From positions 1 through 64,000 of the forward strand of contig NZ_JAAEDI010000015.1 of the NCBI RefSeq assembly GCF_018129025.1: a stretch of DNA of 64,000 nucleotides, given 5' to 3'. Source of the stretch: Neoroseomonas terrae. GTDB lineage: Bacteria; Pseudomonadota; Alphaproteobacteria; Acetobacterales; Acetobacteraceae. The position numbers were made by a program, and so were the translations under genes. Below the pieces are notes generated by a model. The model worked only from the letters and a program-made list of their open reading frames with translations. It searched no databases and had not been told where the DNA came from. This document shows positions 9,335-35,628 of this stretch, in pieces. Numbering within the stretch: position 1 is the stretch's first letter; every line of letters starts with the position of its first letter.

Positions 9335-9410
9335 GAGGGGCTCTGCCCCTCCCGGACCCTCCCCGCCAAAGGCCGAAGGGCCTTTGGAAACCTTGACCTG
9401 GTGTTGGGCA
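9335..9410 (+). repeat. Two-hairpin dispersed repeat, copy A
   Basis: Starts 23 bases after the oxidoreductase stop. Module 1 is a GC hairpin with arms GAGGGGC/GCCCCTC (9335-9351). Module 2 is a perfect 9-bp hairpin, arms CCAAAGGCC/GGCCTTTGG with loop GAAG (9366-9387). Module 3 is the tail AAACC-N4-ACCTGGTG-N3-GGC. No T-run follows. Copy B faces it 100 bp downstream. Same-strand position after a stop codon suggests an RNA 3'-end or terminator function. Confidence 0.9.
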
Positions 9411-9510
9411 GAGCGCGCTGGTCGTTGACGGTTTAGGTCGCGTTGCGCCCGGCAGCGAGATTTTTCTCCGGCGGCCGGCGCAACGGTCCGTTCAAGCGAT
9501 CCGAACGCTT

Positions 9511-9593
9511 GGCCCCAGCACCAGTTGGAGGTTTCCAAAGGCCCTTCGGCCTTTGGTGGGGAGAGGTTCGGAGAGGGGCAAAGCCCCTCTCCG
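9511..9593 (-). repeat. Two-hairpin dispersed repeat, copy B
   Basis: Inverted relative to copy A. Reading the minus strand, module 1 is an 11-bp hairpin CGGAGAGGGGC/GCCCCTCTCCG (9569-9593), module 2 the perfect CCAAAGGCC/GGCCTTTGG hairpin (9535-9556), then AAACC and CTGGTG. It begins 13 bases past the stop of the minus-strand Bug gene. Copies A and B together fill most of the 293-bp convergent gap 9313-9605, which holds no gene. Confidence 0.9.
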
Positions 9594-9605
9594 ATGCGCA
9601 GAGCG

Positions 9606-10577
9606 TCAGTTGATCCGCAGGTTCAGCCGCCGGATCATCGTCCCTTCCTCTTCCATCACCTGCCCGACATAGGCCGTGTAATCCGCACTGTTCTTGTAGA
9701 TGACGGGCATGTCGTAGCGCGCCAGCACCTCCGCATGCGCAGGGTCCATCAGGGCGGCCTTGAAGGCATCGTGCAGTGCGCGCACCACGCCGGGGTCCAT
9801 GCCCTTCGGGCCGGCGAGGCCGTAGGGCGAGGCTGAGACGATGTTGATCCCGACCTCGCGCAGCGTCGGCACGTCGGGGAAGCGGGCGGCGCGGTTCTCG
9901 CCCCAGGTGACGAGCAGGCGGAGCTGTCCGGCTTCGACCAGCGGCGCCCAGCCGGTGGAATCCGCATTTGCCTGGGTCTGGCCCGACAGGACGGCCTGGA
10001 TGTTGTCGGCCCCGCCGCGGAAGGGCACGTGCAGCCAATCGATGCCGTTCTCGGCTGCGATGCGTTCCATGGTGATGTGCAGGGTGGAGCCGACGCCGGG
10101 CGAGCCATAGGCGACCTTGCCCGGGTTCGCCTTGGCGTACGCCATGAATTCCTGCCAGGTCCGCCACGGGCTGTCGGCCTTCACCACGACACCGAACAGG
10201 TAGCCGGTGAGGTGGATGACGTATGTGAAGTCCTTCATCGGGTCCCAGCCAGGACGCGAGGTCATCATCGGCATGCGGAAGGCGGTGATCGGCAACTGGC
10301 CGACCAGATAGCCGTCGCCGCGCTGCTCCGCCGCCATCATCTGTGCGCCGAGCGTACCAGACACGCCGCTGCGGTTCTCAATGATCACGGGTTGGCCGAG
10401 ATGTCGCTGCGCGATGTCGGCGAGGGAGCGCAGTTGCCCATCGGTGGAGCCCCCGGGGGGCCAGGGTACGATCAGCCGGATGGGGCGGTTGGGAAAGCCG
10501 GCCTGCGCAACGGCGGGTGCTGCGAGCAACGCGCCGCCGGCCGCCAGTAGCGCACGGCGGGATGCCGTGATGATCAT
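9606..10577 (-). CDS. Bug/TctC-family periplasmic solute receptor
   Basis: 323 residues; ATG with GGGAGGAA upstream on the minus strand. Signal peptide with RR in ASRRALLAAGG and cleavage near AVAQ (about residue 25). Hallmarks PWPPGGSTDGQ and IENRSGVSGTLG are present and the tail reads EEEGTMIRRLNLRIN. It is the last gene of a minus-strand group with the thiolase/OB-fold pair, 72 bp downstream of the thiolase, suggesting the receptor delivers an acid processed to a beta-ketoacyl-CoA. Ligand unknown. Confidence 0.93.
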   Translation of the reverse strand: MIITASRRALLAAGGALLAAPAVAQAGFPNRPIRLIVPWPPGGSTDGQLRSLADIAQRHLGQPVIIENRSGVSGTLGAQMMAAEQRGDGYLVGQLPITAFRMPMMTSRPGWDPMKDFTYVIHLTGYLFGVVVKADSPWRTWQEFMAYAKANPGKVAYGSPGVGSTLHITMERIAAENGIDWLHVPFRGGADNIQAVLSGQTQANADSTGWAPLVEAGQLRLLVTWGENRAARFPDVPTLREVGINIVSASPYGLAGPKGMDPGVVRALHDAFKAALMDPAHAEVLARYDMPVIYKNSADYTAYVGQVMEEEGTMIRRLNLRIN

Positions 10578-10649
10578 CTTGTTGTTCCTCCCTGCATTGT
10601 ATCGGTCTTGCGGCCCCGCGGTCGTTGCCGCGGGGCCGGTCGCGCGACG

Positions 10650-11801
10650 TTACGGCCGCTGGTTCGAGAAGACGACGGTGCCGGAGGCGGAGAACATGCC
10701 GCCCACGCCATGCGCCACGCTGATGGTCACATCCGGCACCTGGGCGGGGGCGATGCCGCGCACCTGGCGGACGCTCTCCTGCAGGGCGAACATGCCGTAC
10801 ATGCCGGTGTGGGTGTAGGACAGGCCGCCGCCATTGGTGTTCAGCGGCAGCTTGCCGCCGGGGCGGGTATTGCCTTCCCAGATGAAGTCCTTCGCCTCGC
10901 CACGCTGAACGAAGCCGAGGTCTTCAAGCCCGTACATCGGCAGATGCGCGAAGGCGTCGTAGATCATCAGGTGATCGACATCGCCATGCTTGATGCCCGC
11001 CATGCGGAAGGCTTCCGGCCCGGCCACGCGGAAGGCGCGGGAGGAGGTGAAATCCTCCATCTGGCTGACCATCGTCGTCTCGACGGATTCACCGCTGCCG
11101 AGGATGTAGACCGGCTTCTGCGGGAAATCCTTGGCACGATCGGCCGAGGTCAGGATCAGCGCGCCGCCGCCATCCGTCACCAGGCAGCATTGCAGCAGGC
11201 GGAACGGATAGGCGATCATGCGGGAGTTCAGCACGTCCGCGACGGTGATCGGGTCGCGGAACGCCGCGCGCGGGTTCTTCGCCGCCCATTCCCGCTGCAC
11301 GACGGCGACCTGCGCCATCTGCTCATGCGACACGCCGTACTTCTTCATGTAGCGCAGCACGGGGATCGGGAAGAGCGTCGGCGGGCCCATCGGGCCGAAC
11401 GGTGCCTCGAACTGGCCGTTCAGCGATTGCGGCTCGGGCGGGCGCGGGGTCGCGTTGATGCGCGACTTGCCGCTCTCGCCATGGGTGATGAGGATGGTCT
11501 TGGCATAGCCCGCATGGATGGCCGCCGCGGCGTGGCGGACATGCAGCATGAAGGAACAGCCGCCGACACCGGTGCCGTCCACCCATTTCGGCGTGATGCC
11601 GAGGTAATGCGCGATCTGCTGCGGCATCATCGGGCCGACGCAGGCCACGCCGTCGATGTCGGCGGGCTTCAGCCCCGCGTCTTTCATCGCGTTCAGCGCC
11701 GCATCCGCATGCAGCATGATCTGCGCCATCTCCGGCACGGTGCCGATGCGCGTGGATTCCGCGGCACCGACGATGGCGATCTCGCCCGGCTTGATCGTCA
11801 T
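10650..11801 (-). CDS. Thiolase-fold acetyl-CoA acetyltransferase (SCP2-thiolase-like)
   Basis: 383 residues, the length of non-classical SCP-x-type thiolases. The nucleophile loop is GTGVGGCSF with Cys82; later TNGGGLSYTHTGMYG supplies the family His, and AHGVGGMFSASG lies near the C-terminus. Expected reaction is CoA-dependent cleavage of a beta-ketoacyl-CoA, or an acyl transfer. The OB-fold partner gene ends 4 bp upstream on the same strand; in steroid side-chain degradation and related systems such thiolases work in complex with a DUF35 OB-fold protein, so a complex is likely here too. Substrate is not determinable from sequence. Confidence 0.9.
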   Translation of the reverse strand: MTIKPGEIAIVGAAESTRIGTVPEMAQIMLHADAALNAMKDAGLKPADIDGVACVGPMMPQQIAHYLGITPKWVDGTGVGGCSFMLHVRHAAAAIHAGYAKTILITHGESGKSRINATPRPPEPQSLNGQFEAPFGPMGPPTLFPIPVLRYMKKYGVSHEQMAQVAVVQREWAAKNPRAAFRDPITVADVLNSRMIAYPFRLLQCCLVTDGGGALILTSADRAKDFPQKPVYILGSGESVETTMVSQMEDFTSSRAFRVAGPEAFRMAGIKHGDVDHLMIYDAFAHLPMYGLEDLGFVQRGEAKDFIWEGNTRPGGKLPLNTNGGGLSYTHTGMYGMFALQESVRQVRGIAPAQVPDVTISVAHGVGGMFSASGTVVFSNQRP

Positions 11802-11805
11802 GGCG

Positions 11806-12222
11806 TCAGGCTCCCTTCGCGGGGCGGAACAGCGGCAGGGTGATGTCGTCGTCCATCTTGGTGAAGGCGACTTCCACCGGCATGTCGAGCACCAGCGCCT
11901 CGGGCGTTTGCGGGCAATCGACGATGTTCGTCATCATGCGCGGGCCTTCCTCCAGCTCGACCACGGCGATCGCATAGGGCGGCTTGAAGCCCGGCACGGG
12001 GCGATGGTGGATGACGTAGGAATGCAGCGTCGCCTTGCCCGAGGCCTCGAACACCTCGACATTGCGCGTGCCGGTGTAGGGGCTGAAGGGGCGGGGCGGG
12101 AAATACGCCTTGCCGGTGTCGGTGCAGCGCTGCAGCAGCAGCTTGCCGTTGCGGGTGCCGTCCCAGAAATGCTTGGTCTCGGGCGTCGGTTCGGGCCGCG
12201 GGCGGCCTGGTTCGAGCGTCAT
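11806..12222 (-). CDS. OB-fold DUF35 protein, thiolase partner, with degenerate zinc ribbon
   Basis: 138 residues; ATG 12222 is preferred over an in-frame ATG 33 bases upstream because AGGAGG lies 10 bases before it. The family has an N-terminal rubredoxin-like zinc ribbon and a C-terminal OB fold that contact a thiolase or dehydratase. Here the ribbon reads LLLQRCTDTGKAYFPPRPFS, keeping only Cys33; the other three expected cysteines are Thr36, Ser47 and Thr50, so zinc binding is probably lost. The OB part (TLHSYVIHHRPVPGFKPPYAIAVVEL) is intact. Directly upstream of the thiolase and probably its subunit. Confidence 0.9.
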   Translation of the reverse strand: MTLEPGRPRPEPTPETKHFWDGTRNGKLLLQRCTDTGKAYFPPRPFSPYTGTRNVEVFEASGKATLHSYVIHHRPVPGFKPPYAIAVVELEEGPRMMTNIVDCPQTPEALVLDMPVEVAFTKMDDDITLPLFRPAKGA

Positions 12223-12288
12223 GCTATCGCATCCTCCTGCATGGATTGGCGGCATGTTCGCCCGCCTCGCGGCGGCTGGAAAGGGGGC

Positions 12289-12304
12289 CCGACCGCCCGG
12301 TCGG
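12289..12304 (-). terminator. Possible terminator hairpin of the glycosyltransferase operon
   Basis: CCGACC/GGTCGG with a 4-base loop, in the 160-bp gap after the last minus-strand glycosyltransferase and before the OB-fold gene. GC-rich, with no clear T-run, so weak. Confidence 0.3.
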
Positions 12305-12382
12305 CCGGGATGGTGCCGCTGCCCTGCAGGCTGCCCGGAGGCTGCTGCGCGCGTGGTCCGACCCGGGCGGCCTTGTGCGGCC

Positions 12383-13243
12383 CTACAATTCCAGGATGCG
12401 TTCCGGTGCCGCGCGGCCGCGCAGCAGATCCCACAAGCCCAGCATGTTGCCGCGGAAGCGACCCCGGCGATCCGCCCAGGGTTCCGGCTTCACGGAGCGC
12501 ACGAGGTTGATCAGGCAGTGCCGCGCGGCGCTCGGGATGGCGTGGCTCCAGGGGAAGGTGCCTTTGCGCGCGAGATAGACCGGGTTGACCACCTGCGAGT
12601 AGCCGAGACGCAGCTGCGTCACGCGGCCGGACTTGGACCCCAGATGCACGCCGCGCGCGCCGGCGAGGCGAAGGATGGTGCCGTGCACGCCGAGCTGGCG
12701 CGAGACGTCGATATCCTCATACCAGCCGTAAAGCGGCAGACGTTCGTCGACGCGGATACCGTGCTCGCGCACCGTCGCCATACGGAAGGCCATGTTGCAG
12801 CCGTAGCCGTTGAAGTGCGGAGCGCTGGCGGTGGGGTCGGCGGGCGGGGTGTCGGCGGCGAGCAGCGCGGCGCCTTCCTCAAGCGAATATCCCGGCCCAT
12901 TCGCGCCATCCGCGACGACCGTGCCGGTCGCGACGACCATGTCGGGATGCGCGACGAAGGCCGCTTCCAGCACCGCGAGGAAATCCGGCGCGCAGAGGAA
13001 ATCGTCATCGAGGAACAGCACCACGTCGCAATCCGTCGCGGCATCTAGGATCGCGTTGCGCTGGCGCGGCAGGCCGGCCGGGGCGGTGATGAACTCGGCG
13101 CGGGTGCAGCCCGTGACGTCATCCGGCGTTACGTGGCACACGATGATGCGGTCGGGCTGGCGGGTCTGCCGACGCAGGTCCTCCAGCACGCCGGCCAGGA
13201 TCGCCGGGCGCCCGCGCGTCGGGATGCCGATGGCGATGCGCAT
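12383..13243 (-). CDS. Glycosyltransferase family 2
   Basis: 286 residues. ATG 13243 overlaps the stop of the upstream glycosyltransferase (TGATG); a GTG one codon earlier is an alternative. GT-A fold: MRIAIGIPTRGRPAILAGVLEDL, DVVLFLDDDFLCAPDFL with the DDD metal/nucleotide-sugar motif near residue 95, then FNGYGCNMAFR and YGWYEDIDVSRQL with the acidic ED acceptor-side motif. No signal or strong membrane helix; cytoplasmic. It is the last gene of a five-gene minus-strand overlapping run (flippase to here) that builds and exports a surface glycan. Donor and acceptor sugars unknown. Confidence 0.9.
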   Translation of the reverse strand: MRIAIGIPTRGRPAILAGVLEDLRRQTRQPDRIIVCHVTPDDVTGCTRAEFITAPAGLPRQRNAILDAATDCDVVLFLDDDFLCAPDFLAVLEAAFVAHPDMVVATGTVVADGANGPGYSLEEGAALLAADTPPADPTASAPHFNGYGCNMAFRMATVREHGIRVDERLPLYGWYEDIDVSRQLGVHGTILRLAGARGVHLGSKSGRVTQLRLGYSQVVNPVYLARKGTFPWSHAIPSAARHCLINLVRSVKPEPWADRRGRFRGNMLGLWDLLRGRAAPERILEL

Positions 13244-14118
13244 CACTCGATGTCCGTCAGCGGTGCGAGCACGGCGGGCTGGCGCGCTTCCGGCGCCATC
13301 ATGCCGGCGAGCCGGCCGCGGAAGGTCATCCAGTAGTACCCGGCATTGTGCATCCGCCCGCGCAGCAGGCTGGCGGCGACGCCGCCGAGCGGGCGCATGA
13401 GGAAGGTCATGCGCGCACCGAGCGGCGCACCGTTCCGTTGCAGCGCGAAGCCAAGGCCGCGCCCGTAGCGTTCGGCGCGCTCGACCGCGACATCGGACAG
13501 CCGCTTGTCGGGATGGATGATGCGCAGCGCCGCGTCGTAGCGGGCGCCGAGACCCCGGGCCAGCGCGCGGCAGACCAGGTCGTTGCCCTCGGCGGATCCG
13601 AAGGGGCTGCCCGGCCCCATGCCTTCATCGAAGCCGCCCAGGGCCAGCGCCGTCTCGCCGCGCAGGAAGATGTTGAACTCGATGACGCTGGTCCAGACGG
13701 TCACGAGGTCGATCGGCCCGGTCTCCTCGCGCCAGCGGCCCGATCCAAGCCCGCCCTTCGGCGAGGCCGCCGGCCCGGTCAGCACATGCAGCTTGGGATC
13801 GGCGGTGAACGCTGCGTCCACGCTGTCCAGCACGCCCGGCGGATACAGGCAGTCATCGTCGGGAAAGGTGACGATCTCGCCACGCGCGTGGCGCAGGCCG
13901 AGGTTCCGCGCATGGTTCGCGTTGCGCACGGACGACCGCAGCCGCCGAAGCGTAACGCGCGAAGCATACGCCGCTTCGATCGGTCCCAGCCGGTCGTCGT
14001 CATTCTGATCGACGAGGATGACCTCGAAGTCCAACCGCCCCTGCGCCAGCAGTGTGTCCAGCAGTGCCGCGATATCCGCGTCACGTCCCAGCGTGGCGAC
14101 GACGAGCGAGAACCTCAT
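13243..14118 (-). CDS. Glycosyltransferase family 2
   Basis: 291 residues from ATG 14118, which overlaps the upstream stop (ATGA); longer in-frame starts add only unconserved arginine-rich sequence. GT-A features: MRFSLVVATLGRDADIAALLDTL, VILVDQNDDDRLGP, NHARNLGLRHARGEIVTFPDDDCLYPPG with the DDD motif near residue 90. C-terminal region lacks obvious long membrane helices. Coupled to glycosyltransferase genes on both sides, so it should add one sugar of the same repeat unit. Specificity unknown. Confidence 0.9.
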   Translation of the reverse strand: MRFSLVVATLGRDADIAALLDTLLAQGRLDFEVILVDQNDDDRLGPIEAAYASRVTLRRLRSSVRNANHARNLGLRHARGEIVTFPDDDCLYPPGVLDSVDAAFTADPKLHVLTGPAASPKGGLGSGRWREETGPIDLVTVWTSVIEFNIFLRGETALALGGFDEGMGPGSPFGSAEGNDLVCRALARGLGARYDAALRIIHPDKRLSDVAVERAERYGRGLGFALQRNGAPLGARMTFLMRPLGGVAASLLRGRMHNAGYYWMTFRGRLAGMMAPEARQPAVLAPLTDIE

Positions 14119-15215
14119 CGCCGCGCATCCTCGACCACGCGGCGCATCGCTGCGCGGAAGGCGGCGTGGCTGAAGCGTTCGGCATTGGCGCGGCACTCGG
14201 CGGGGGAGACCGCCAGCGCGTCGAAGGCGTTCACCGCGGTGATGATGGAATCGGCCGTCTGTTCCTCGAAGAACAGGCCGGTCTGGCCGGGCAGGATGAT
14301 GTCGCGCGCGCCACCCTTGCCGAAGGCGATGACCGGCGTGCCGCAGGCCTGCGCCTCGACGGTCGCGATGCCGAAATCCTCCTCGGCGGCGAAGACGCAG
14401 GCGCGGGCGGTTTGGGTCAGGCGCACCAATTCCTCGGTGCCGAGGCGGCCGCGCAACTCGATATTCGCCGCGCCATTCGCTGCCGCGCGCACCTGCGGCG
14501 CATTCGGCCCGTCGCCGACGATGACCAGCCTGCGCTCCGGCATCCGGCGGAAGGCCTCGGCGATCAGCTCGATGCGCTTGTACGGAACCATGCGCGACGC
14601 GACGAGGAAGAAATCCTCCTTCGCCTCATGCAGCGCGAAGCGGTCCACATCGACCGGCGGATGCACGACGATGCTGTCGCGTCGCCACGCTTTGCGGATG
14701 CGCTCCCCGATATAGCTGGAATTCGCCACCACCACGTCCGGGTTCAGCGCGCTGGCGCGATCCCACAGGCGCATCCGATGCAGCAGGCGGCGGGTGTAGA
14801 GGCCCTTCAGCCCCGTCTCCATGCCCGCTTCGCGCAGATACTGGTGCTGCAAATCCCACGCATAGCGCATCGGGCTGTGCACGTAGCTGACATGAAGCTG
14901 TCCCGGCCCGGTCAGCACGCCTTTCGCGACAGCATGGGACGACGTCAGCACCAAATCGTAGCCGGACAGGTCCAATTGCTCGATCGCCAGCGGCATCAGC
15001 CCAAGGAACTTGCGGAAATGCTTCCGCGCGAAGGGCAGGCGCTGGATGAAGGTGGTCGTCACGGGCCTGCCGCGCAGGAAGCCGCGCTCGCCTTCCGCCA
15101 TGAAGTCGCAGACGGCGAAGAGGTCCGCCTCCGGCCATTCGGCGATCAGCTGCTCGACGACACGCTCGGACCCCGCATAGGTGTCGAGCCATTCATGGAC
15201 GATGGCGACCTTCAT
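14115..15215 (-). CDS. Glycosyltransferase family 4
   Basis: 366 residues from ATG 15215 in an ATGA overlap; in-frame sequence further upstream is antisense to the neighbouring gene and unconserved. GT-B fold: MKVAIVHEWLDTYAGSERVV at the N-terminus (glycine loop), VVANSSYIGERIRKAW mid-protein, and the C-terminal donor-binding EX7E region EEDFGIATVEAQACGTPVIAFGKGG. This is a retaining sugar transferase acting at the cytoplasmic face of the inner membrane, probably in assembly of a lipid-linked oligosaccharide. Third gene from the 3' end of the overlapping glycan operon. Confidence 0.93.
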   Translation of the reverse strand: MKVAIVHEWLDTYAGSERVVEQLIAEWPEADLFAVCDFMAEGERGFLRGRPVTTTFIQRLPFARKHFRKFLGLMPLAIEQLDLSGYDLVLTSSHAVAKGVLTGPGQLHVSYVHSPMRYAWDLQHQYLREAGMETGLKGLYTRRLLHRMRLWDRASALNPDVVVANSSYIGERIRKAWRRDSIVVHPPVDVDRFALHEAKEDFFLVASRMVPYKRIELIAEAFRRMPERRLVIVGDGPNAPQVRAAANGAANIELRGRLGTEELVRLTQTARACVFAAEEDFGIATVEAQACGTPVIAFGKGGARDIILPGQTGLFFEEQTADSIITAVNAFDALAVSPAECRANAERFSHAAFRAAMRRVVEDARR

Positions 15216-17784: not shown

Positions 17785-17814
17785 CGAATGGAACCCCTGG
17801 TTAGCCCCGGGGGA

Positions 17815-18865: not shown

Positions 18866-18910
18866 CTGACCCCCAAGCTCGACGCCGTCCTGTCATACGC
18901 CTTCGCCGCA

Positions 18911-20485: not shown

Positions 20486-20490
20486 TCGGG

Positions 20491-20566
20491 AAGGGGCGCC
20501 GCCGCATCCCGAACCCTACCCCGCCAAAGACCGAAGGGCCTTTGGAAACCCGGCCTTGGTGCTCGG
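20491..20566 (+). repeat. Two-hairpin dispersed repeat, copy C (inside a gene end)
   Basis: Starts 6 bases after the DUF6311 stop. Module 2 lies at 20524-20545 with one mismatch (CCAAAGACC arm); module 1 is degenerate; module 3 reads AAACCCGGCCTTGGTGCTCGGC. Read on the minus strand it encodes the last residues of the next gene (GFPKALRSLAG) and its TAG stop, so the repeat has become coding sequence. Confidence 0.85.
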
Positions 20567-21550
20567 CGCCGCGGGCGGACCTGATGATCCGACCCCGTCC
20601 ATCCGGCTCGGCGCATACCGCTCCGTGAAGTACAGCGGCCGCTGCTTCGTCTCGTTGAAGATGCGCCCGAGATACTCTCCGATGATCCCCAGCATCATCA
20701 TCTGCACCCCGCCGAGGAACAGCACGACGGCCAGAAGGCTGGGATAGCCGGCGACCGGGTTCCCGAAGAAAAAGGTGCGGAACAGAAGCTGCGCGAGATA
20801 AGCCACCGCGGCCACGGACGTGACGAGCCCGACATAGGTCGCCACCTTCAATGGCGCGACCGTGAAGGAGGTGATCCCCTCCAGCGAGAAGTTCCACAGC
20901 TTCCAGTAGTTCCACTTCGTCGTGCCGGCCGCGCGCGGCGCGCGGTCATAGCGCACGGCCCTGGATGGGAATCCGATCCAGGCGAAGAGCCCCTTCATGA
21001 AGCGGTGCTGCTCGCGCAGCTTCAACAGGGCATCGATGGCCCGCCGGGACATCAGGCGGAAGTCGCCGGTGTCGGGCGGCAGCTGCACCTTCCCGCCCAG
21101 GCGTTGCATCAGGCGGTAGAAGCCGGCGGCCGTCGCCTTCTTCACCCAGGTCTCGCCCTCGCGCGTGTTGCGCTGGGCATAGACGACGTCGAAGCCCTCC
21201 CGCCAGGTCTCGATCAGCGCCGGGATCAGCTCGGGCGGGTCCTGCAGGTCGGCGTCGATGACGACGATCGCCTCACTGCCGCGCGCATGGTCCAGCCCCG
21301 CGGTCAGCGCGATCTCCTTCCCGAAGTTGCGGGAAAGATTGACGATGGCGACGCGCGGGTCGGCCGCCTGCAGCCCGGTCATCACCGACAGCGTGGTGTC
21401 GCGGGAGCCATCGTTCACATAGACGACCTCCCACTCCATGCCGATGGCGACCAGCGCTTCGGCCAGGCGGCGATGGAACTCGGGCAGGACCTCCTGCTCG
21501 TTGTAGGCTGGGACGACGACGGACAGGGCAGGCGCGGCTTCACTCATCAT
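20516..21550 (-). CDS. Glycosyltransferase family 2, polyprenyl-phosphate sugar transferase (GtrB/DPM1-like)
   Basis: 344 residues from the first of two tandem ATGs (21550); longer starts add unconserved sequence. N-terminal GT-A domain: LSVVVPAYNEQEVLPEFHRR, VVYVNDGSRDTTLSVM, VNLSRNFGKEIALTAGLDHA, VVIDADLQDPPELIP, then QRNTREGETWVKK and TGDFRLMSRRAID. Two membrane helices follow (about residues 230-300; PLKVATYVGLVTSVAAVAYL and AGYPSLLAVVLFLGGVQMMML). Such enzymes load a sugar onto undecaprenyl phosphate for later periplasmic transfer, a natural partner for the adjacent GT-C-like DUF6311 protein. The last about 25 residues lie in a dispersed repeat and are probably not functional. Confidence 0.93.
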   Translation of the reverse strand: MMSEAAPALSVVVPAYNEQEVLPEFHRRLAEALVAIGMEWEVVYVNDGSRDTTLSVMTGLQAADPRVAIVNLSRNFGKEIALTAGLDHARGSEAIVVIDADLQDPPELIPALIETWREGFDVVYAQRNTREGETWVKKATAAGFYRLMQRLGGKVQLPPDTGDFRLMSRRAIDALLKLREQHRFMKGLFAWIGFPSRAVRYDRAPRAAGTTKWNYWKLWNFSLEGITSFTVAPLKVATYVGLVTSVAAVAYLAQLLFRTFFFGNPVAGYPSLLAVVLFLGGVQMMMLGIIGEYLGRIFNETKQRPLYFTERYAPSRMDGVGSSGPPAAPSTKAGFPKALRSLAG

Positions 21551-21704
21551 GGGGCATCCCGGTGGGCCGATGGCTGGCCCGCATGAAGGCACGAGGAACA
21601 GCACTCATCGGGCCGAATCAAGGCATTGATCCCCCCGCCGTCGCCAATCCGGGCGAAACCGCGTAAGCCCGCGGGTAAGTGCCGCAACGGAATATGGAGG
21701 AAGC

Positions 21705-24955: not shown

Positions 24956-25246
24956 GAACCTTCGGTTCCTTCTCTGCGCCCGTGGCGATGGCCGGCGCCG
25001 TGATGGCGACGGGACGCGTAACGGTTCAGCAAGCCCTGTGCCGCTGTGGAGCGAGCTGATCACCGGATGGGCAATGTGTTGCGAAAATACTACGGCGGCC
25101 CGGCGCCACCGGATGCGGGGCTGGCCGCGCGCGGCATCGGGCAGCAGCGCGTAGAGCCGCCATGGGCGATTGGCGGCTGCGGCGCAAAGACGAAGGGCGG
25201 CGCCGGTGCCCCGGGGCCGCCCTTCGAATGGGTCGATGCGCCGCCG

Positions 25247-26923: not shown

Positions 26924-26933
26924 GGGGCGTTCC

Positions 26934-27896: not shown

Positions 27897-27960
27897 GGAT
27901 AGGCGTTCCTCAGTCCCTGGCACGCATCCTGCCGCATCCCGCCGTCACCGCAAGCCAGCC

Positions 27961-28944: not shown

Positions 28945-29026
28945 GGACGTTCTCTCCGGCGCGGCCGGTTCGCCGGGCCGCGGTTTCATGATTCAGGCTG
29001 GACGCTGCGCGTCGCCCTGTCCAGCC

Positions 29027-30343
29027 TCAGCCGGCCTGCTTCTCCACCCGGCGCTGCCGCAGGCCGAGCCAGACGCTGAGCACGGCCCAGGCAATGCAGA
29101 CAGGGACGGTGGCCGCGGCGATGCCGGTGAGCGTGAGGCCGAGCGCGAGCAGGCCGGCGTAGCTCCAGGCGGCCACTTGGTCGCCGCCGCGATAGACCAC
29201 GGTATCGATGAAGTTCTTCGCCTTGTAGCGGTCCTCGCGCGGAACGGCGGTGAACAGCACTTCCCTCGACGGACGGGCGAGGGCGAAGTTGGACACGCGC
29301 CGCGCCACCTGCACCACGACGAACACCGCAACCGTCGGCCAGCTTGCGAGGGCCGCGAAGCCGAAGATGCTCAGCGCCGGCAGGACGGTCAGCATCACCG
29401 CGACGCCGAGCCACGCCGTCAGCCGCCCCGTCAGGAACAGTTGGAAGCCGAGCGTCAGCACGTTCACCCAGAAGTCGATGTTCGCGAAGAACGCGGTGCG
29501 GGCCGCGCGGCCCGGGAAGTTCGCTTCGGCGATGGAGGCCTGCTGGAAGTAGAGCACCGTGGAAGTGATCGAATAGAGCAGGATGAAGCCGGCGATGCCG
29601 AGCAGGTAGGGCGAGCGCAGCGTATGCGTCAGGCCCGCGAAGATGCCGCCGCCGAGCGGGCGGTGCGGATCATCCCCCTGCACGGATCCCTGGAAGGCGT
29701 CGGTGATGCGGGACAGTCGCCGCACGGCGAAGACCGCGACCTCCAGCAGTACGATCGAGGCGAGCAGCAGCCAGTTCTGCCCGAGATGCTCGACGAAACC
29801 CGAGGTCAGCGCGGAGCCGGCGATGCCGCCCAGCGTCGCGCCTGCGGCGAGGAAGCCGAAGAGCCGCTTGCCCTGGTCCGAGTCGAACACGTCGACGATG
29901 AAGGACCAGAAGATGGAGACCACGAAAAGGTTGAAGACGGAGGTCCAGATGAAGAAGGCGCGGCCGATCCACACATGCTGTTCCGGCGTCGCCACCATCA
30001 GCAGGACCATGAAGACCAGCAGGTTCAGCATGAAGAAGCGGTAGGCGATGGCGATGAAGGTCTCGCGCGGCCAGCGCCGCACCGCATAGGCAAACAGCGG
30101 ATTGGCCGCGAGCATCGCCAGCAGCGTGCCGGTGAACAGCCAGGGCAGGTTGCGCACGCCGCCCGCGACGCCGAGCTCGTCGCGGATCGGGCGCAGGACG
30201 TAGTAGGCGAGGAACAGTGCGAAGACGTAGAGCCAGGACCAGGCCAGCGCGCGCGCCTCGCCGGGGCGGATGTCGATCACCCGCCGCAGCAAGCCGTGCA
30301 GGACCCCATCCGCCGGAACGGCGGCGGCGGCCTCAGAGGCCAT
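29027..30343 (-). CDS. NTP/NDP exchange transporter-like MFS membrane protein
   Basis: 438 residues with about 12 membrane helices. The N-terminal third (RALAWSWLYVFALFLAYYVLRPIRDELGVAGGV) is the hallmark of the ATP/ADP translocase-related group of MFS proteins found in many free-living proteobacteria; the YYxLRPIRDE motif lies at about residue 47. Unlike obligate parasites, such bacteria do not need host ATP, and the substrate of these homologues is unknown. It overlaps the end of the aldo/keto reductase gene by 11 bp on the same strand, so the two are expressed together. Confidence 0.8.
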   Translation of the reverse strand: MASEAAAAVPADGVLHGLLRRVIDIRPGEARALAWSWLYVFALFLAYYVLRPIRDELGVAGGVRNLPWLFTGTLLAMLAANPLFAYAVRRWPRETFIAIAYRFFMLNLLVFMVLLMVATPEQHVWIGRAFFIWTSVFNLFVVSIFWSFIVDVFDSDQGKRLFGFLAAGATLGGIAGSALTSGFVEHLGQNWLLLASIVLLEVAVFAVRRLSRITDAFQGSVQGDDPHRPLGGGIFAGLTHTLRSPYLLGIAGFILLYSITSTVLYFQQASIAEANFPGRAARTAFFANIDFWVNVLTLGFQLFLTGRLTAWLGVAVMLTVLPALSIFGFAALASWPTVAVFVVVQVARRVSNFALARPSREVLFTAVPREDRYKAKNFIDTVVYRGGDQVAAWSYAGLLALGLTLTGIAAATVPVCIAWAVLSVWLGLRQRRVEKQAG

Positions 30344-31238
30344 CGATGAACTGCTCCATCCGGCGGCGCATCGCGGCGTCGGGCATGCGCCCCTGCGCGG
30401 CCTTCAGGTTGTCGTCCACGTAGCGCGCCTGCGCCATGCCCGGCACCGCGCAGGTCACGGCGGGGTGCGAGACGAGGTACTTCAGCATGAGCTGCGCCCA
30501 GGTCGTCACGTCGATCTCGGCCGCCCAGTCGGGCAGGGGCTTGCCCTGGGTCGCGCGGAACACGCTGCCGCGGCCGAAGGGCAGGTTGATGAAGACCGCC
30601 ATGCCGCGTTCGGCGGCGAGGGGGATGATGCGTTCGGCGGCGTTGCGGTTGTCGAGCGCGTAGTCGATCTGGATCGCATCCAGCGTCTCGCGCCGCATCA
30701 TCTGCTCGAAGGCTTCGTATTGCCGGTCGAAGGACGTCGTTGCGCCGACATAGCGGACGCGGCCAGCCTGCTTCAGCTCGCGCAAATAGGCGAGCTCGTT
30801 CGTGATGTCGCGCAAGTTGTGGACGGCCAGCAGATCGATCCGGTCGGTGCGGAGCTTGCGGAAGGATTCCGCAATCTGGGCGCGGCCCTGCTCGATGTTG
30901 TCGACGCCGACCTTGGTGCCGATGAACAGGTCCCGGCGGATGTTCAGGCTGGCGATGATGTCGCCCATGATGGCTTCGGCGTTGCCGTAGGACGGCGCCG
31001 TGTCCACCACCGTCCCGCCGAGTTCGTGGAAGCGGCGGAAGGTGTCGCGCAGCGGTGCCATGTCGGCCTCGGTGCTCGCTTCCTCATACCGGCGGGCGGA
31101 GCCGAGGCCGATGATCGGGATCAGCTCCCCGCTGCTGGGAATCGGCTTCTTCAGGAGCGGCGCGGCCTGGGCGAGGGCGGCTGGGGCCGCGGCGCCGGCC
31201 GCGAGGCCGGCAAGCAGGGTGCGACGGGGCAGGGTCAT
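30333..31238 (-). CDS. Exported aldo/keto reductase
   Basis: 301 residues from ATG 31238; the frame is open for 90 further codons but these are unconserved. A twin-arginine-type signal (MTLPRRTLLAGLAAGAAAPAALAQ) suggests export folded with NADPH, or a lipid-side role; this is unusual for an AKR. The catalytic tetrad is complete: Asp79, Tyr84, Lys109, His140 (VVDTAPSYG, GTKVG, LLAVHN). C-terminal KYLVSHPAVTCAVPGMAQARYVDDNL binds NADP in the family. Followed by the transporter-like gene in an 11-bp overlap. Confidence 0.9.
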   Translation of the reverse strand: MTLPRRTLLAGLAAGAAAPAALAQAAPLLKKPIPSSGELIPIIGLGSARRYEEASTEADMAPLRDTFRRFHELGGTVVDTAPSYGNAEAIMGDIIASLNIRRDLFIGTKVGVDNIEQGRAQIAESFRKLRTDRIDLLAVHNLRDITNELAYLRELKQAGRVRYVGATTSFDRQYEAFEQMMRRETLDAIQIDYALDNRNAAERIIPLAAERGMAVFINLPFGRGSVFRATQGKPLPDWAAEIDVTTWAQLMLKYLVSHPAVTCAVPGMAQARYVDDNLKAAQGRMPDAAMRRRMEQFIDGL

Positions 31239-31368
31239 GTCTCGTCCTCTCGGCACGCTGATGTCGTTGGCACGGGCGAGGCGGACCGGCCCGCACCTGC
31301 CGAGTGTGAGCCAGGCGCGGGCGATTTCAAGTGGCTCCCGGACGCGGAGCCGGCTTGTTACTTGGCAG

Positions 31369-32001
31369 TTACTTTTTGCGCGATTCCCAATCCGCCAGCG
31401 GGATGCGCGGAATCTCGACGCGATCGGTGGTACGGGCATACCAGCCGCGCCCATGCATGCGCCCGACGAGTTCGAGCTTCGGCGTGTCGAGATAGAACTT
31501 CGCCGCATCCAGCACGCAGTCGTCGCGGATGTACTGCGCGATGACCTTGCCCATGACGATGGTGTGCTTGCCGGCGGGGACGAACTGGAACACCTCGCAT
31601 TCCAGCGCGACCGGGCTTTCGGCGATGCGCGGCACCTTCACGCGAAGGCTCGGCGCGGTGGTGAGGCCGGCCTCGTCCAGTTCGTTCACGCCGTGCGGGA
31701 AGTCGATGGCGGTGACGTTCATCTGTTCGGCATTCGCGGCGGAAACCAGGTTCACCACGAACTGGCCGGTCGCCTCGATATTGGCGAGCGTGTCCTTCAC
31801 CGCGCCGGGCGGGCGGCGGCCGCAGCCGATGCCGACCACGACGGGATTGTCGGAGAACGCATTGAAGAAGGAGTAGGGCGCGGCGTTGATGCGCCCCTCG
31901 CGGTCCTGGCTGACCACCCAGGCGACCGGCCGCGGCACGACGGAGGCGACGACGAGCTTGTAGGCCTGTTCGTGCGGAATGGTGGTGAAGTCGAAATGCA
32001 T
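31369..32001 (-). CDS. Flavin reductase family protein
   Basis: 210 residues from ATG 32001; longer in-frame sequence is unconserved. FMN-binding split-barrel: MHFDFTTIPHEQAYKLVVASVVPRPVAWV, INAAPYSFFNAFSDNPVVVGIG and VKDTLANIEATGQFVVNLV. The family uses NAD(P)H to reduce FMN, often feeding FMNH2 to a luciferase-like monooxygenase, and one such gene is in the window at 8.1 kb though far away. Some close relatives are not reductases. It lies 19 bp downstream of a 2-hydroxyacid dehydrogenase gene on the same strand. Confidence 0.9.
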   Translation of the reverse strand: MHFDFTTIPHEQAYKLVVASVVPRPVAWVVSQDREGRINAAPYSFFNAFSDNPVVVGIGCGRRPPGAVKDTLANIEATGQFVVNLVSAANAEQMNVTAIDFPHGVNELDEAGLTTAPSLRVKVPRIAESPVALECEVFQFVPAGKHTIVMGKVIAQYIRDDCVLDAAKFYLDTPKLELVGRMHGRGWYARTTDRVEIPRIPLADWESRKK

Positions 32002-32020
32002 CTGTGGGTGGTCCTTGGCT

Positions 32021-32998
32021 TCAGGCGGCGCGGTGCGGCGGGTTCTGGCCCTTGAGCAGCAGGGCTTCGAGGTTCTCGATGCAGCGATTGCCCATCGCGT
32101 CGCGCGTCTCGATGGTGGCCGAGCCCAGATGCGGCAGCAGCGCGACATTCTCGAGCGTCATGTAGCCCGGGTCGATCTTCGGTTCGGCGGTATAGACGTC
32201 GAGGCCGGCGGCGCGGATCTGGCCGGATTTCAGCGCGGCGACCAGCGCCTCATCATCCACCGACGGGCCGCGGCCGGTGTTGATGACGATGGCGCCCTTC
32301 TTCATCTTCGCGAGCCGCGCCGCGTTCAGCCATTTGCGCGTGGCGTCGCCGCCCGGGACGTGCATCGAGATCACGTCGATCGCGCCGAGGAAGCTGTCCT
32401 CATCGGCGTGGAAGGTCGCACCCTTTTCCAGTTCCGCCGACAGGCGCTGGACGTCGTGGTAGTGGATCTTCATCTGCATCCCGCGCGCCATGTCCGCGAG
32501 TTCCCGCCCGATACGGCCGAAGCCGAGCACGCCGAGCGTCTTGCCCTGCAGCGTGACGCCCATCAGCTGGGTCGGTGCCCAGCCCTCCCACTTGCCTGCG
32601 CGGACCATGCGCTCGCCTTCACCGGCGCGCCGGGCGGCCATCAGCATTAGGGTGAAGGCGGTCTCGGCGGTGGCGAAGGACAGCACCTCCGGCGTGTGCG
32701 TCACGGCGATGCCGCGCGCCTTGCAGGCATCGAGAGCGACATGGTCGACGCCGACGCTGAAGGTGGTGACGATCTTCACGCTGTCGGGCAGGGCGCCGAT
32801 GGTCTGCGCGTTCATCGGATCGCCGGCGGCGCAGAGCACGCCGGCCGCGCCCACCTCCGTCGCGCGCTTCGCGATCGCCGCGCCGTCGCGGAACCAGGGC
32901 TCGTCATTCGGATTCAGCCGCGCATCGAACAGGGACGTCAGCCGCGCCTCGATGTGGTCGGGCAGCTTGCGGGTGACGAGGATGACCGGCTTTGCCAT
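32021..32998 (-). CDS. D-isomer-specific 2-hydroxyacid dehydrogenase (glyoxylate/hydroxypyruvate reductase type)
   Basis: 325 residues from ATG 32998; earlier in-frame codons are unconserved. N-terminal MAKPVILVTRKLPDHIEARL, Rossmann motif LGVLGFGRIGRELAD, and the catalytic Arg-Glu-His set: Arg in NTGRGPSVDDEAL, Glu in TAEPKIDP, His in LLPHLGSATIE. Reduces a 2-oxoacid such as glyoxylate with NAD(P)H in the cytoplasm. The order on the minus strand is this gene, then the flavin reductase. Divergent from an SDR gene. Confidence 0.93.
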   Translation of the reverse strand: MAKPVILVTRKLPDHIEARLTSLFDARLNPNDEPWFRDGAAIAKRATEVGAAGVLCAAGDPMNAQTIGALPDSVKIVTTFSVGVDHVALDACKARGIAVTHTPEVLSFATAETAFTLMLMAARRAGEGERMVRAGKWEGWAPTQLMGVTLQGKTLGVLGFGRIGRELADMARGMQMKIHYHDVQRLSAELEKGATFHADEDSFLGAIDVISMHVPGGDATRKWLNAARLAKMKKGAIVINTGRGPSVDDEALVAALKSGQIRAAGLDVYTAEPKIDPGYMTLENVALLPHLGSATIETRDAMGNRCIENLEALLLKGQNPPHRAA

Positions 32999-33126
32999 GG
33001 GACGCTTCCTGCCTGGAGTGACGGGTTGGGCGCGCACCATGGCGCGACGGGGGCCGTCTTGCCAGGGGGCGGGGGAGGAGGCAGGGTCCGCACCCATTTC
33101 CACAGTCGATTTTCGGGAGGGTGAGC

Positions 33127-33918
33127 ATGGATCTCGGTCTGAAGGGCAAGCGCGCGCTGGTCATGGGCGGCGCGAAGGGGCTCGGGCGGTCGATCGCCGA
33201 TGCGCTGGCGGCCGAAGGCACGGTGCTGACGATCAGCGGCCGCGACGTCGCCGCGATGGAGAAGGCGGCGGCTGACCTGAAGGCGCTCGGCGCGCCGTCG
33301 GTGTCCGTGGTGCAGGCGGATGTTTCGAGCAGCGCCGAGATGGACAAGCTGGCCGATGCCGCGGTGAAGGCGATGGGCGGCGTGGACATCCTGGTGCTGA
33401 ACCATGGCGGCCCGCCGGTCTGCACGGCCTCGGAGATGACCGAGGAGAACCTGACGAAGTGGTTCCAGAACATCGTCGTCTCGCCGATCCGCATCACCAT
33501 GAAGCTGATGCCGGCGATGCGGGCGCAGAAGTTCGGCCGCGTGATCGTGGTGGGGTCGTCGGGAATGCACCACCCGATCCCGACGCTGGCGCTGTCCAAT
33601 ACGCTGCGCGCCTCCATCTGGGCCTGGCTCAAGACGCTGTCCGCTGAAGTGGCGGCCGATGGCGTGACGATGAACATCCTCGCGCCGGGCTCGATCCGCA
33701 CCGACCGCATTACCCAGACCGCCGCGGTGCGCGCCGAGAAGGCCGGCACCACCGTGGATGAGGAGATCGCGCGCGCCGGCAAGGAAGTGCCGATGGGCCG
33801 CGTTGGCGAGGCGAGCGAATACGGCCCGATGGGCGCGTTCCTCGCGGGCAAGACCGGCACCTACATCACCGGCACGATGGTCCGCGTGGATGGCGGGCGC
33901 GTGCGGTCGATGCTGTAG
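33127..33918 (+). CDS. Divergent SDR-family protein lacking the catalytic Tyr-Lys
   Basis: 263 residues. ATG 33127 is 6 bases after GGGAGG; a GTG at 33121 is less well spaced. Rossmann motif is MGGAKGLG (13-20) instead of TGxxxGxG, and NHGGP replaces NNAG. Around the active site it reads VVGSSGMHHPIPTLALSNTLRASI: Ser is kept but no Tyr lies in the YxxxK position, where LSNTLR is found. This is a known-looking divergent SDR subgroup; reduction by the standard mechanism is unlikely, so it may act differently or only bind cofactor. C-terminal YITGTMVRVDGGRV is normal. Followed by a repeat-rich gap. Confidence 0.9.
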   Translation: MDLGLKGKRALVMGGAKGLGRSIADALAAEGTVLTISGRDVAAMEKAAADLKALGAPSVSVVQADVSSSAEMDKLADAAVKAMGGVDILVLNHGGPPVCTASEMTEENLTKWFQNIVVSPIRITMKLMPAMRAQKFGRVIVVGSSGMHHPIPTLALSNTLRASIWAWLKTLSAEVAADGVTMNILAPGSIRTDRITQTAAVRAEKAGTTVDEEIARAGKEVPMGRVGEASEYGPMGAFLAGKTGTYITGTMVRVDGGRVRSML

Positions 33919-34004
33919 TATCCGATGACCGAAGGGCGCAGGCGCCGCGAGGCGCCGAGCACCCGGAGGTCTGGATAGGAAAGGCGTTGCGGTTGCAGAC
34001 GTCA

Positions 34005-34079
34005 GAGGGGCTTTGCCCCTCCGACACCACCCCACCAAAGGCCGAAGGGCCTTTGGAAACCTCGACCTGGTGCCTGGCA
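34005..34079 (+). repeat. Two-hairpin dispersed repeat, copy D
   Basis: Starts 87 bases after the SDR stop. Module 1 GAGGGGC/GCCCCTC with loop TTT (34005-34021); module 2 perfect CCAAAGGCC/GGCCTTTGG with loop GAAG (34035-34056); module 3 AAACCTCGACCTGGTGCCTGGC. The whole 358-bp gap 33919-34276 has no gene; it is filled by copy D and the variant facing it. Confidence 0.9.
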
Positions 34080-34174
34080 TCGTTGTCGGGATGCCCCGCC
34101 GAGACGCGCTCTCGCGCCCGAAGCGTGCGTAGTGGCCTGCGGGCCTGTGATGCCCGGCGCCAACAGATTGTGGT

Positions 34175-34232
34175 CCAGGGGCTCCAAGCCCCTGGCGGGT
34201 GGAGGTTCGGAGGAGGGCAGGGCCCTCCTCCG
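34175..34232 (-). repeat. Variant of the two-hairpin repeat (D')
   Basis: On the minus strand: an 11-bp hairpin CGGAGGAGGGC/GCCCTCCTCCG (34208-34232), a spacer like that of copy B (CCGAACCTCCACCC), then a 9-bp hairpin CCAGGGGCT/AGCCCCTGG (34175-34195). Layout matches the repeat but the second hairpin has a different sequence, so it is a structural variant facing copy D, as B faces A. Confidence 0.6.
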
Positions 34233-34276
34233 ATCGTCCCGAGCGGAATCAAGACAATCATCAAGAAAGGCCGCCC

Positions 34277-35542
34277 ATGCTGCCGAACCTGACGCCGGAC
34301 ATCGATCTGGCCGACGAACTCTTCACCGGCCTCAGGGCCGGCAGCACCGATGGCGAGGGCGTGACGCGCGAGGCCTACGGCCCCGGTGAGCGCATGGCGC
34401 ATGCCCTCGTCCGCGCCGCGGCGGAGAAGATCGGGCTGGAATGCTCGACCGACGTCGCGGGCAACATGTACATGACGCTGCCCGGCACCGACCGCGCGGC
34501 GAAGCGCATCATCATCGGTAGCCATCTCGATTCCGTCCAACAGGGCGGGAATTACGATGGCGCGGCGGGCGTGCTCGCGGGGATGGCGGCGGTGGCGGGG
34601 ATGAAGCGCGCGGGCTTCGTGCCGGGCCGCGACATCACCGTTATGGCGATCCGGGCTGAGGAGGCGGGCGCCTGGTTTCCGGTGTCCTATCCCGGTTCGC
34701 GGATGGCGCTCGGGCTGTTCAAGGCGGATGGGCTCGCCATTCCGCGCAACGACAGCGGCCGCAGCCTTGCGGATCACATGCGTGAGGAAGGCTTCGACCC
34801 CGATGCCGTCGCACGGGGCGACCATGCGCTCGGCCCGCACAACGTTGCCGGCTTCCTGGAACTGCATATCGAACAGGGTCCGGTGCTGGAGGCGGAGCAG
34901 GTGCCGATCGCCATCGTCACGGGCATTCCCGGCAGCCGCAGGCTGCGGCAGGGGCGGGTGATCGGGGAATACAACCACTCGGGCGCGACGCCGCGGAAAT
35001 ACCGTCGGGACGCGGCAGCGGCTCTGGCGGAACTCGTGCACCGCATGGACGAGGAATGGTGCCGGCTCGATGCGGTGGGTCAGGTGCTGGTTTGCACCTT
35101 CTGCACCATGGCGACCACGGCCGATGCGGGCTTCACCAAGATCGCCGGGGAGGCGACCTTCCAGCTCGATGTCCGCAGCGTCTCCCCGCATGCCTGCGAC
35201 CTGATGTTCGAGGCATTGCACCGCTTCATGGCCGGGATCGAGGCACGCCACGGCGTACGCTTCGAGTGCGGCCCGGAAACCGGCAGCCGCGCCGCGATCA
35301 TGGATGAGGGGATCCGCGACGGCCTGGCGCGCGCGGCGGACGGCCTCGGCATCGCGCATATCGCGATGTCGTCCGGTGCCGGCCATGACGCGGCCTCCTT
35401 CGCCGAGGCGAAGATCCCGTCGAGCATGCTGTTCGTGCGCAACCAGAACGGCAGCCACAATCCGCATGAGGCGATGCGGATGGAGGATTTCGCAAAGGCC
35501 TGTGCGGTGGTGCAGCGCTGGGCTGCCGAGGCTTCGCTTTGA
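34277..35542 (+). CDS. Zn-dependent amidohydrolase, N-carbamoyl-L-amino acid hydrolase/allantoate amidohydrolase family (M20)
   Basis: 421 residues from ATG 34277 with AAGAAAGG upstream. Dinuclear-metal M20 fold: metal ligands in GSHLDSV (about 79), YDGAAGV (about 92), the EEA pair in AIRAEEAGAW (about 126), ELHIEQG and the late NGSHNPHE. The GxPxSRR-type segment IPGSRRLRQGRVIGEYNHSGATP is typical of the carbamoylase/ureidoglycolate branch rather than peptidases. Likely hydrolyses an N-carbamoyl amino acid or ureido compound to amine, CO2 and ammonia. The gene is bracketed by oppositely oriented dispersed repeats and followed by a LysR regulator and Hyu genes, fitting hydantoin-like catabolism. 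Confidence 0.9.
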   Translation: MLPNLTPDIDLADELFTGLRAGSTDGEGVTREAYGPGERMAHALVRAAAEKIGLECSTDVAGNMYMTLPGTDRAAKRIIIGSHLDSVQQGGNYDGAAGVLAGMAAVAGMKRAGFVPGRDITVMAIRAEEAGAWFPVSYPGSRMALGLFKADGLAIPRNDSGRSLADHMREEGFDPDAVARGDHALGPHNVAGFLELHIEQGPVLEAEQVPIAIVTGIPGSRRLRQGRVIGEYNHSGATPRKYRRDAAAALAELVHRMDEEWCRLDAVGQVLVCTFCTMATTADAGFTKIAGEATFQLDVRSVSPHACDLMFEALHRFMAGIEARHGVRFECGPETGSRAAIMDEGIRDGLARAADGLGIAHIAMSSGAGHDAASFAEAKIPSSMLFVRNQNGSHNPHEAMRMEDFAKACAVVQRWAAEASL

Positions 35543-35550
35543 CAGCCGCG

Positions 35551-35628
35551 CCCGGCACCAAGTAACGGTTTCCAAAGGCCCTTCGGCCTTTGGCGGGGTG
35601 AGCCCGCGAGGGGCGGCGCCCCTCTCGG
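35551..35628 (-). repeat. Two-hairpin dispersed repeat, copy E
   Basis: Lies between the amidohydrolase stop and the LysR ATG, in minus orientation. Module 1 GAGGGGC/GCCCCTC with loop GGC (35608-35624); module 2 perfect CCAAAGGCC/GGCCTTTGG hairpin (35572-35593); module 3 AAACCGTTACTTGGTGCCGGGC. It ends 6 bases before the LysR start, so it forms that gene's leader. Confidence 0.9.

Follow-up and report, generated by a model that had tools for sequence, protein, structure and literature searches.

A dispersed repeat of tandem hairpins with mirrored putative third strands at gene ends in Neoroseomonas terrae and its family

Copies in the window and in the host genome

The window analysed here, a stretch of 64,000 nucleotides of the Neoroseomonas terrae genome (contig NZ_JAAEDI010000015.1, positions 1 to 64,000), carries six copies of a dispersed repeat that is mainly found at gene ends. 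Each copy, hereafter a half, is composed of a hairpin 1, a linker, a hairpin 2 and a tail, and most copies correspond to one half of a two-armed unit whose halves face inward. The linker and the tail reproduce, in mirror order, the purine tract of the hairpin that each of them follows, a relationship that covaries between copies and species and that points to selection for intrastrand DNA triplexes. An earlier note made from the sequence alone had described five copies with three modules in a fixed order; all five were recovered in place with modules that align, while the sixth, which has a hairpin 2 of different sequence, had been overlooked.

The first complete unit (halves A and B, 9331..9594, both strands) lies between two convergent genes encoding a luciferase-like monooxygenase (+) and a TctC receptor (-). 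Half A, on the plus strand, comprises hairpin 1 (9331..9355), supported by covariation, the linker CCCTCCCC (9357..9364) as putative third strand of hairpin 1, hairpin 2 (9366..9387, CCAAAGGCC/GGCCTTTGG) and the tail start AAACC (9388..9392) as putative third strand of hairpin 2. On the minus strand, half B runs from hairpin 1 (9568..9594) through the linker CCTCTCCCC (9558..9566, putative third strand 1) and hairpin 2 (9535..9556) to AAACC (9530..9534, putative third strand 2). The second complete unit, D (34001..34233, both strands), is located between codirectional genes for an SDR (+) and an M20 peptidase (+). Its left half (34001..34061, +) consists of hairpin 1 (34001-34025), the linker CCACCCC (34027-34033), hairpin 2 (34035-34056) and AAACC (34057-34061), and its right half (34172..34233, -), the sixth of the window, of hairpin 1 (34207-34233, TCGGAGGAGGGC arm), the linker CCTCCACCC (34197-34205), hairpin 2 (34175-34195, CCAGGGGCT/AGCCCCTGG) and ACC (34172-34174). 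Another hairpin element of ca. 62 nt (ATCCGATGACC...GGTCTGGATAGGA) was observed at 33919-33980, directly after the SDR gene and with unit D just 3' of it; it occurs at the same place in two relatives (G001 and G011) and, by eye, not in the 13 others read.

For the two remaining halves no partner was found. Half C (20486..20550, +) has a hairpin 1 with a decayed 3' arm, the linker CCCTACCCC, a hairpin 2 and AAACC; it overlaps the 3' end of a minus-strand glycosyltransferase open reading frame (20516-21604, overlap region 20516-20570), to which it appears to supply the last residues and the stop codon. Half E (35567..35629, -) is formed by hairpin 1 (35603-35629), the linker CTCACCCC (35595-35602), hairpin 2 (35572-35593) and AAACC (35567-35571). 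A to D are located 3' of a gene in its own orientation, as stated in the earlier note; E is not, being 3' of the preceding gene with its hairpin 1 facing the start of the next one. A search of the window against Rfam gave nothing above the gathering score on the repeat; matches elsewhere were one tRNA and the suhB/mmgR small RNA (RF00519; 45315-45388, -, 60.7 bits).

The host assembly (5.77 Mb in 67 contigs, 98.27% complete, 69% GC) contains many more copies, as the earlier note had expected. With up to three mismatches, the hairpin-2 core has five matches in the window versus none in 100 shuffles, and a 25-nt core has 283 matches genome-wide versus none for a reversed control. A 1.255-Mb sample of the genome, made of the window and 60 further stretches and used for the host counts below, holds 63 of these core matches. 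In this sample, a structural descriptor that included a single short linker motif retrieved 67 places, 66 of which are the repeat by eye, and a covariance model detected 91 halves at E up to 3e-6; the same model found at least 150 halves in the whole genome, and scaling the 91 halves by 63 versus 283 core matches suggests ca. 400. Several hairpin-2 sequences share a common stem with other letters (CCAAAGGCC, GCAAAGGCC, CCAGGATGC, CCAGGGGGT, CCAGGTGCT and CCAAATGAT).

Sixty-four of the 91 halves are arranged in 32 pairs that face inward and measure 214-369 bp, 27 of them within 220-265 bp, and none is paired outward; the other 27 are unpaired at the threshold used for the model. The centres of the units are weakly conserved (26 of 245 compared centre pairs scored above every shuffled pair) and, when the 32 units were compared globally, the highest pairwise identity was 0.89.

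Paired arms and mirrored third strands

In the 91 host halves, 96.9% of the hairpin cells are paired versus 80.4% after shuffling, 16 of the 19 hairpin pairs change on both sides, and the covariation score reaches 0.428 versus 0.134 for shuffled and at most 0.136 for slid alignments. A second, mostly non-host set drawn from other species and genera agrees, with 17 of 19 pairs changing on both sides; its 110 rows represent 94 distinct sequences, some loci having been fetched twice, and include the six halves of the window and two loci outside the family. The stems contain few G-U cells, 8 versus 53 non-standard cells in the host set and 6 versus 40 in the mostly non-host set. The covariation of the arms that the earlier note had anticipated is therefore present in both sets.

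The conservation of linker and tail follows a single rule. When the purine tract of hairpin 1 is read outward from the loop and the linker backward from hairpin 2, each G of the tract corresponds to a C and each A to an A or a T. Examples, given 5' to 3', are GGAGAGGGG with CCTC[A/T]CCCC, GGGAAGGG with CCCATCCC, GAGGAGGG with CTCCTCCC and GAAGGGGG with CTTCCCCC. The rule was evaluated on 185 distinct halves, 88 from the host and 97 from other genomes, obtained from 238 model matches (some as weak as E = 0.001) after dropping 18 without a parsable hairpin 2 and then 35 duplicates; for hairpin 1, a usable tract was one of five or more, which excluded 21 of the 185 halves, and for hairpin 2, 18 halves had too short a tract. 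Perfect agreement was found for 140 of 164 linkers in one register, against 0, 2, 1 and 0 in registers 0, 2, 3 and 4, and shuffling the linker partners gave a mean of 43.2 and a maximum of 57. Perfect linkers number 69 of 76 in the host and 71 of 88 in other genomes, and counting only the 98 distinct tract-linker combinations leaves 75 perfect versus a shuffled maximum of 29. Opposite G, a C occurs in 970 of 993 cells; opposite A, an A or a T occurs in 226 of 236 (A 88, T 138, G 3, C 7).

This third-strand covariation spans 29 different tract sequences and extends to the tail, in which AAAGG goes with AAACC, AAGGG with AACCC and AGAGG with ACACC; 118 of 167 tails are perfect versus a shuffled maximum of 74, and at most two are perfect in any of five other registers. 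AAACC, which had been taken as part of a separate module, instead mirrors the purine tract of hairpin 2. Furthermore, individual copies that have diverged show changes of their own that match across the three strands, for instance GGGGGAAG with CCCCCTTC outward from the loop in one copy of the set. No polymerase can template a mirror copy, and the matching therefore points to selection for intrastrand triplexes in DNA. An explanation of linker conservation by pairing between the two arms of a unit was rejected, as the linkers within one unit often differ from each other and yet match their own hairpins.

Where the two arms of a hairpin disagree, the third strand follows the 3' arm. For hairpin 1, counted only in halves whose closing pair is C-G and whose 3' arm contains GCCC, the linker agrees with the 3' arm in 39 cases and with the 5' arm in 6; for hairpin 2, the tail does so 15 times versus 4 (halves with CA at positions 2-3 only), with the reservation that the copies are related and that these counts are not of independent events. 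A triplex folded on the written strand would be of the pyrimidine motif, in which A opposite A is not standard, and would bring the linker into contact with the 5' arm. One folded on the complementary strand would be of the purine motif, which accepts either A or T opposite A, and would bring the linker into contact with the complement of the 3' arm. The complementary strand, which for a half located after a stop codon is the template strand of the gene concerned, is therefore the better candidate for the putative triplex. The classes are those of PMC4666352, and according to the accessible part of that paper RNA cannot form purine-motif triplexes.

A scan that makes no use of the model, and that looks for purine/pyrimidine hairpins of 7 perfect base pairs together with a third tract in which one mismatch is allowed, returned 91 class I/III motifs and no class II/IV motif in the host sample, versus 0.33 of each in block shuffles; a published class II pattern used as a control was recovered. 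The repeat thus has the make-up of a putative class I/III intrastrand triplex, with a purine tract, its pyrimidine complement and a third tract fitting the triplex code on one strand, separated by short loops. Eighty-eight of the motifs are intergenic, two of them in divergent regions, and three are genic. In a separate count that viewed each hairpin from both strands, 88 of 184 intergenic views carry a third strand, so that nearly all of the ca. 92 intergenic hairpins have one on one side. Applied to 40 stretches taken around model matches in other genomes, the scan gave 99 class I/III motifs and one class II/IV motif versus none in one shuffle of each.

Seventeen of the 91 host motifs lie outside the model halves, and 16 of these are intergenic. 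Ten of the 16 constitute a second family of unrelated sequence (GGGGGAG...CTCCCCC...CCCCCTC) with the same hairpin-plus-mirror build, eight of them in four inward pairs located in codirectional or convergent regions (C1 34592/34675, C1 214579/214809, C4 78557/78642 and C5 134577/134664, in stitched stretches L060-L119).

Placement, turnover and distribution

Genes in the host sample were called with a simple codon-usage gene caller made for the analysis. Only two of the 91 halves are inside called genes, and a half is present in 28 of the 160 convergent regions, 28 of the 554 codirectional ones and 1 of the 171 divergent ones (Fisher test, convergent versus divergent, p = 8e-9). Hairpin 1 begins at a median of 23 nt after the stop codon when the upstream gene is on the same strand (n=66). 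Similar figures were obtained for 40 stretches from other genomes of the genus and family, with 26 of 103 convergent, 27 of 331 codirectional and 2 of 100 divergent regions and a median of 10 nt (n=54). The halves are therefore concentrated 3' of genes well beyond the window, as had been expected. A hairpin followed by a U-tract was found in none of the 55 regions (20-600 bp) with the repeat and in 13 of the 615 without it, which rules out a canonical intrinsic terminator. Intrinsic (Rho-independent) terminators resemble the repeat in having a GC hairpin just after the stop but, unlike it, have a U-tract.

Comparison with relatives revealed insertion polymorphism at both sites studied. At site D, the unit is found in the host only among the 16 orthologous junctions read (out of 34 genomes with a match); the 15 other junctions are 12-179 bp long, most with a different GC-rich hairpin by eye. 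At site A/B, the full unit is likewise restricted to the host among 16 junctions read (out of 35 genomes with a match). Elsewhere this site shows rearranged modules in G001, an unrelated sequence of similar length in G003, a single hairpin in 26 bp in G020 and G021, overlapping genes in five genomes and other gaps of 32-122 bp in six. These junctions indicate that gene ends gain, lose and swap hairpins, the unit being one source of them, as if a gene end needed a hairpin but no particular one. Insertion and loss by instability are hard to separate, with site D favouring insertion. By eye, orthologous intergenic regions of the genus were often seen to have their own GC-rich hairpin, unlike between species.

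Copy number is patchy within the genus, with core matches ranging from 0, in six of 34 relatives, to 361. In the GTDB family, which belongs to the order Acetobacterales, 178 of 299 genomes and 65 of 102 genera match the model at E up to 0.001, host included. Among named genomes, the exact pattern occurs in Siccirubricoccus, Paracraurococcus, Neoroseomonas and Belnapia, in 47 stretches from which the host may have been left uncounted. NCBI assigns Siccirubricoccus phaeus to Roseomonadaceae, within the order Acetobacterales. In a draw from the class, three of 385 genomes match at E up to 1e-4, namely the host and two others with single copies located after a stop that by eye obey the mirror rule with one mismatch per tail. 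A wider model matched 23 of 398 genomes of the phylum, 16 of which fall in one family outside the class (f197), where the sequences are different and the mirror rule is broadly obeyed; for this family and some other loci, 30 of 98 distinct hairpins (both strands) have perfect tails versus a shuffled maximum of 26, which is supportive but weak. Many hairpin/mirror units of the CCAGGGGC..GCCCCTGGACCCC type, some in tandem arrays, were also observed in two genera of that family (L279-L307).

Relation to known repeats and possible function

The closest known elements are the intrastrand-triplex repeats of E. coli and other bacteria, PIT, BoxC or TM_ECO (Hoyne and Maher as cited; Holder et al. 2015, PMC4666352), so that the kind is already known and the repeat represents a new form of it. 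From the accessible part of PMC4666352, the E. coli motif is also an intergenic G/C-rich hairpin with a mirrored third strand, present in many copies, patchy among relatives and found in closely spaced inverted pairs (five cases in MG1655), but it is of class II (pyrimidine, purine, third strand), 37 nt long, present in 23 copies in MG1655 and at no preferred distance to genes. The present repeat differs in being of class I on the complementary strand, in having two triplex-type hairpins in tandem per half and usually two halves, in its position at a median of 10-23 nt after stops, in its hundreds of copies and in its third-strand covariation across species. The class II order of BoxC/TM_ECO (CCCTCNCCC N3-6 GGGNGAGGG N3 GGGNGAGGG) was discarded, no class II/IV motif having been found in the host sample.

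Repetitive extragenic palindromes (REPs) and bacterial interspersed mosaic elements (BIMEs), as presented in the accessible parts of PMC3733652 and PMC12306157, share with the repeat short extragenic palindromes in inverted pairs, 3' of genes and in hundreds of copies, and the REP-like dispersal suggested in the earlier note is supported. Their definition includes no third strand, and the term triplex is absent from those parts of both papers. Thousands of REPs are predicted in Lichenicola cladoniae, of the order Acetobacterales (PMC12306157), and these counts may include relatives of the repeat; CGTC-tagged repeats are listed as missing in Acetobacteraceae in the portion of PMC3733652 at hand. 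A REP driven by a REP-associated tyrosine transposase (RAYT) was rejected, there being no Y1 transposase in the host genome. No description of the repeat was found in the accessible parts of PMC3733652, PMC12306157 and PMC4060949. In the literature searched, in which subscription journals are thinly covered, no earlier description was recognised, nor was an earlier case of such third-strand covariation found.

Miniature inverted-repeat transposable elements (MITEs) and rhizobial intergenic mosaic elements (RIMEs) are dispersed, non-coding elements of ca. 100-300 bp with palindromes per module. The repeat is like them in size, palindromes, dispersal and lack of coding capacity, the likeness to RIMEs being by description. 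It differs in that no clear target-site duplication was seen and no parent transposon was found in the 1.255 Mb searched, where no inward pair of consecutive halves lies 400-5000 bp apart.

Taken together, these observations lead us to propose that the repeat is a mobile, BIME-like unit of tandem triplex hairpins acting as a barrier at gene ends, a proposal that we consider evenly balanced between right and wrong. It would be a BIME/MITE-like element dispersed in a family of Acetobacterales, in which each half provides two tandem hairpins, each followed by a third strand mirroring its purine tract. On the complementary (template) strand, each hairpin and its mirror could fold as a purine-motif triplex in class I order (third strand, purine arm, pyrimidine arm). 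Units would spread to, or survive at, sites just after stops, especially where two genes converge. When transcription or replication exposes the strand, its triplex hairpins might form a two-way barrier and a gene-end marker that stops polymerases and fixes transcript 3' ends in a genome poor in hairpin-plus-U-tract terminators. What has been observed is the structure, the mirror code and its register, the strand bias, the placement and the presence or absence between species; we infer triplex formation in the cell, the block to polymerases and the mode of movement. In a stronger form, which we consider somewhat less likely than not, selection would maintain true DNA triplexes, folded on the template strand, as polymerase barriers that replace U-tract terminators. 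They would do so at hundreds of gene ends in one bacterial family and, in the form of other sequences, in one or more further classes of Proteobacteria.

Several points weigh against this proposal. The strongest comes from E. coli, whose triplex repeat, according to the accessible part of PMC4666352 (citing earlier work), blocked DNA polymerase in vitro without promoter or terminator activity, the motif being linked instead to genome instability; this counter-evidence would apply by analogy, from a repeat of another class with no set distance to genes. The match is imperfect in 24 of 164 linkers and 49 of 167 tails, and two subtypes of hairpin 2, AGGGGG (with ACCGCA) and AGGA (with ACCG), obey the rule only in part. 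The shuffle counts overstate significance, as the copies are related and matches at E down to 0.001 are included. The argument from wobble pairs against an RNA is weak, since free-ranging parses contain 41 G-T plus T-G cells versus 59 A-C plus C-A cells (A-C 37+16, C-A 5+1, G-T 17+2, T-G 19+3). As for mobility, among the 23 of 32 units with usable ends, the best counts of target-site duplications, four at k=3 and three at k=4, equal the maxima of 300 shuffles, with none at k=6 or 7, and the Y1 (RAYT-type) transposase PF01797 has no match in the host, five of 14 control genomes being positive.

The last two results also count against an explanation that we find unlikely, in which the repeat is a selfish element only: the folded strand would be the substrate of a transposition or replication enzyme, well-folded copies would be those mobilised, and gene ends would simply be the sites of least harm. 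The restriction of the full unit to the host at both sites, the inward units of similar length with some homologous centres, the patchy copy number in the genus and the near absence from divergent regions would all be accounted for. No two of the 32 units exceed 0.89 identity, however, a second family of unrelated sequence has the same build and inward pairing, and the private matched changes in all three strands of single copies (GGGGGAAG/CCCCCTTC) look like selection on individual copies. Less probable still is an element acting as RNA, whose stable hairpins would end or protect mRNA 3' ends, either as trimmed Rho-dependent ends or as ribosome or exonuclease barriers, with the mirror tracts as incidental C-rich Rho-loading sequence. 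It agrees with GC-rich stems just after stops, with the other GC hairpins at orthologous junctions of several relatives and with the scarcity of U-tract terminators. A Rho site, however, need not match the adjacent hairpin base by base, in one register and with A read as A or T, and this reading of the linker was rejected for that reason; the few G-U cells and the agreement of the third strand with the 3' rather than the 5' arm are also unfavourable. The selection on RNA structure proposed in the earlier note is thus retained as selection on a folded nucleic acid, the case for RNA being weakened by the rarity of G-U, the DNA-triplex code and the 3'-arm bias.

Two further explanations appear very improbable. 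The repeat could be an instability hot spot at which a triplex provokes breaks and rearrangement, turnover being a consequence with neither transposition nor gene-end function; the rearranged modules of G001 at site A/B, the single hairpin or nothing in others and the link of triplex motifs to instability made in the accessible part of PMC4666352 agree with this, but placement after stops, inward pairing and the upkeep of matched third strands are left unexplained. Hardly any weight is given, lastly, to mirror symmetry as a functionless by-product of mutation through template switching or slippage. Template switching can make hairpin arms match without selection, but it copies antiparallel, and a mirror copy, which runs parallel, cannot arise in this way. 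Moreover, A positions are filled by A or T in 226 of 236 cells despite a genome of 69% GC.

Counts of triplex-prone repeats in bacterial genomes go back two decades, and tests of the E. coli repeat showed no effect on gene expression (PMC4666352, accessible part). The third-strand covariation reported here is evidence of the type by which RNA helices were established, in this case for a DNA triple helix, and it supplies natural compensatory variants with which the role of DNA triplexes in living bacteria becomes directly testable. If the stronger form of the proposal is true, the repeat would provide evolutionary evidence for intrastrand DNA triplexes as functional units in bacteria, and it suggests how high-GC genomes poor in U-tract terminators may mark the ends of their genes.

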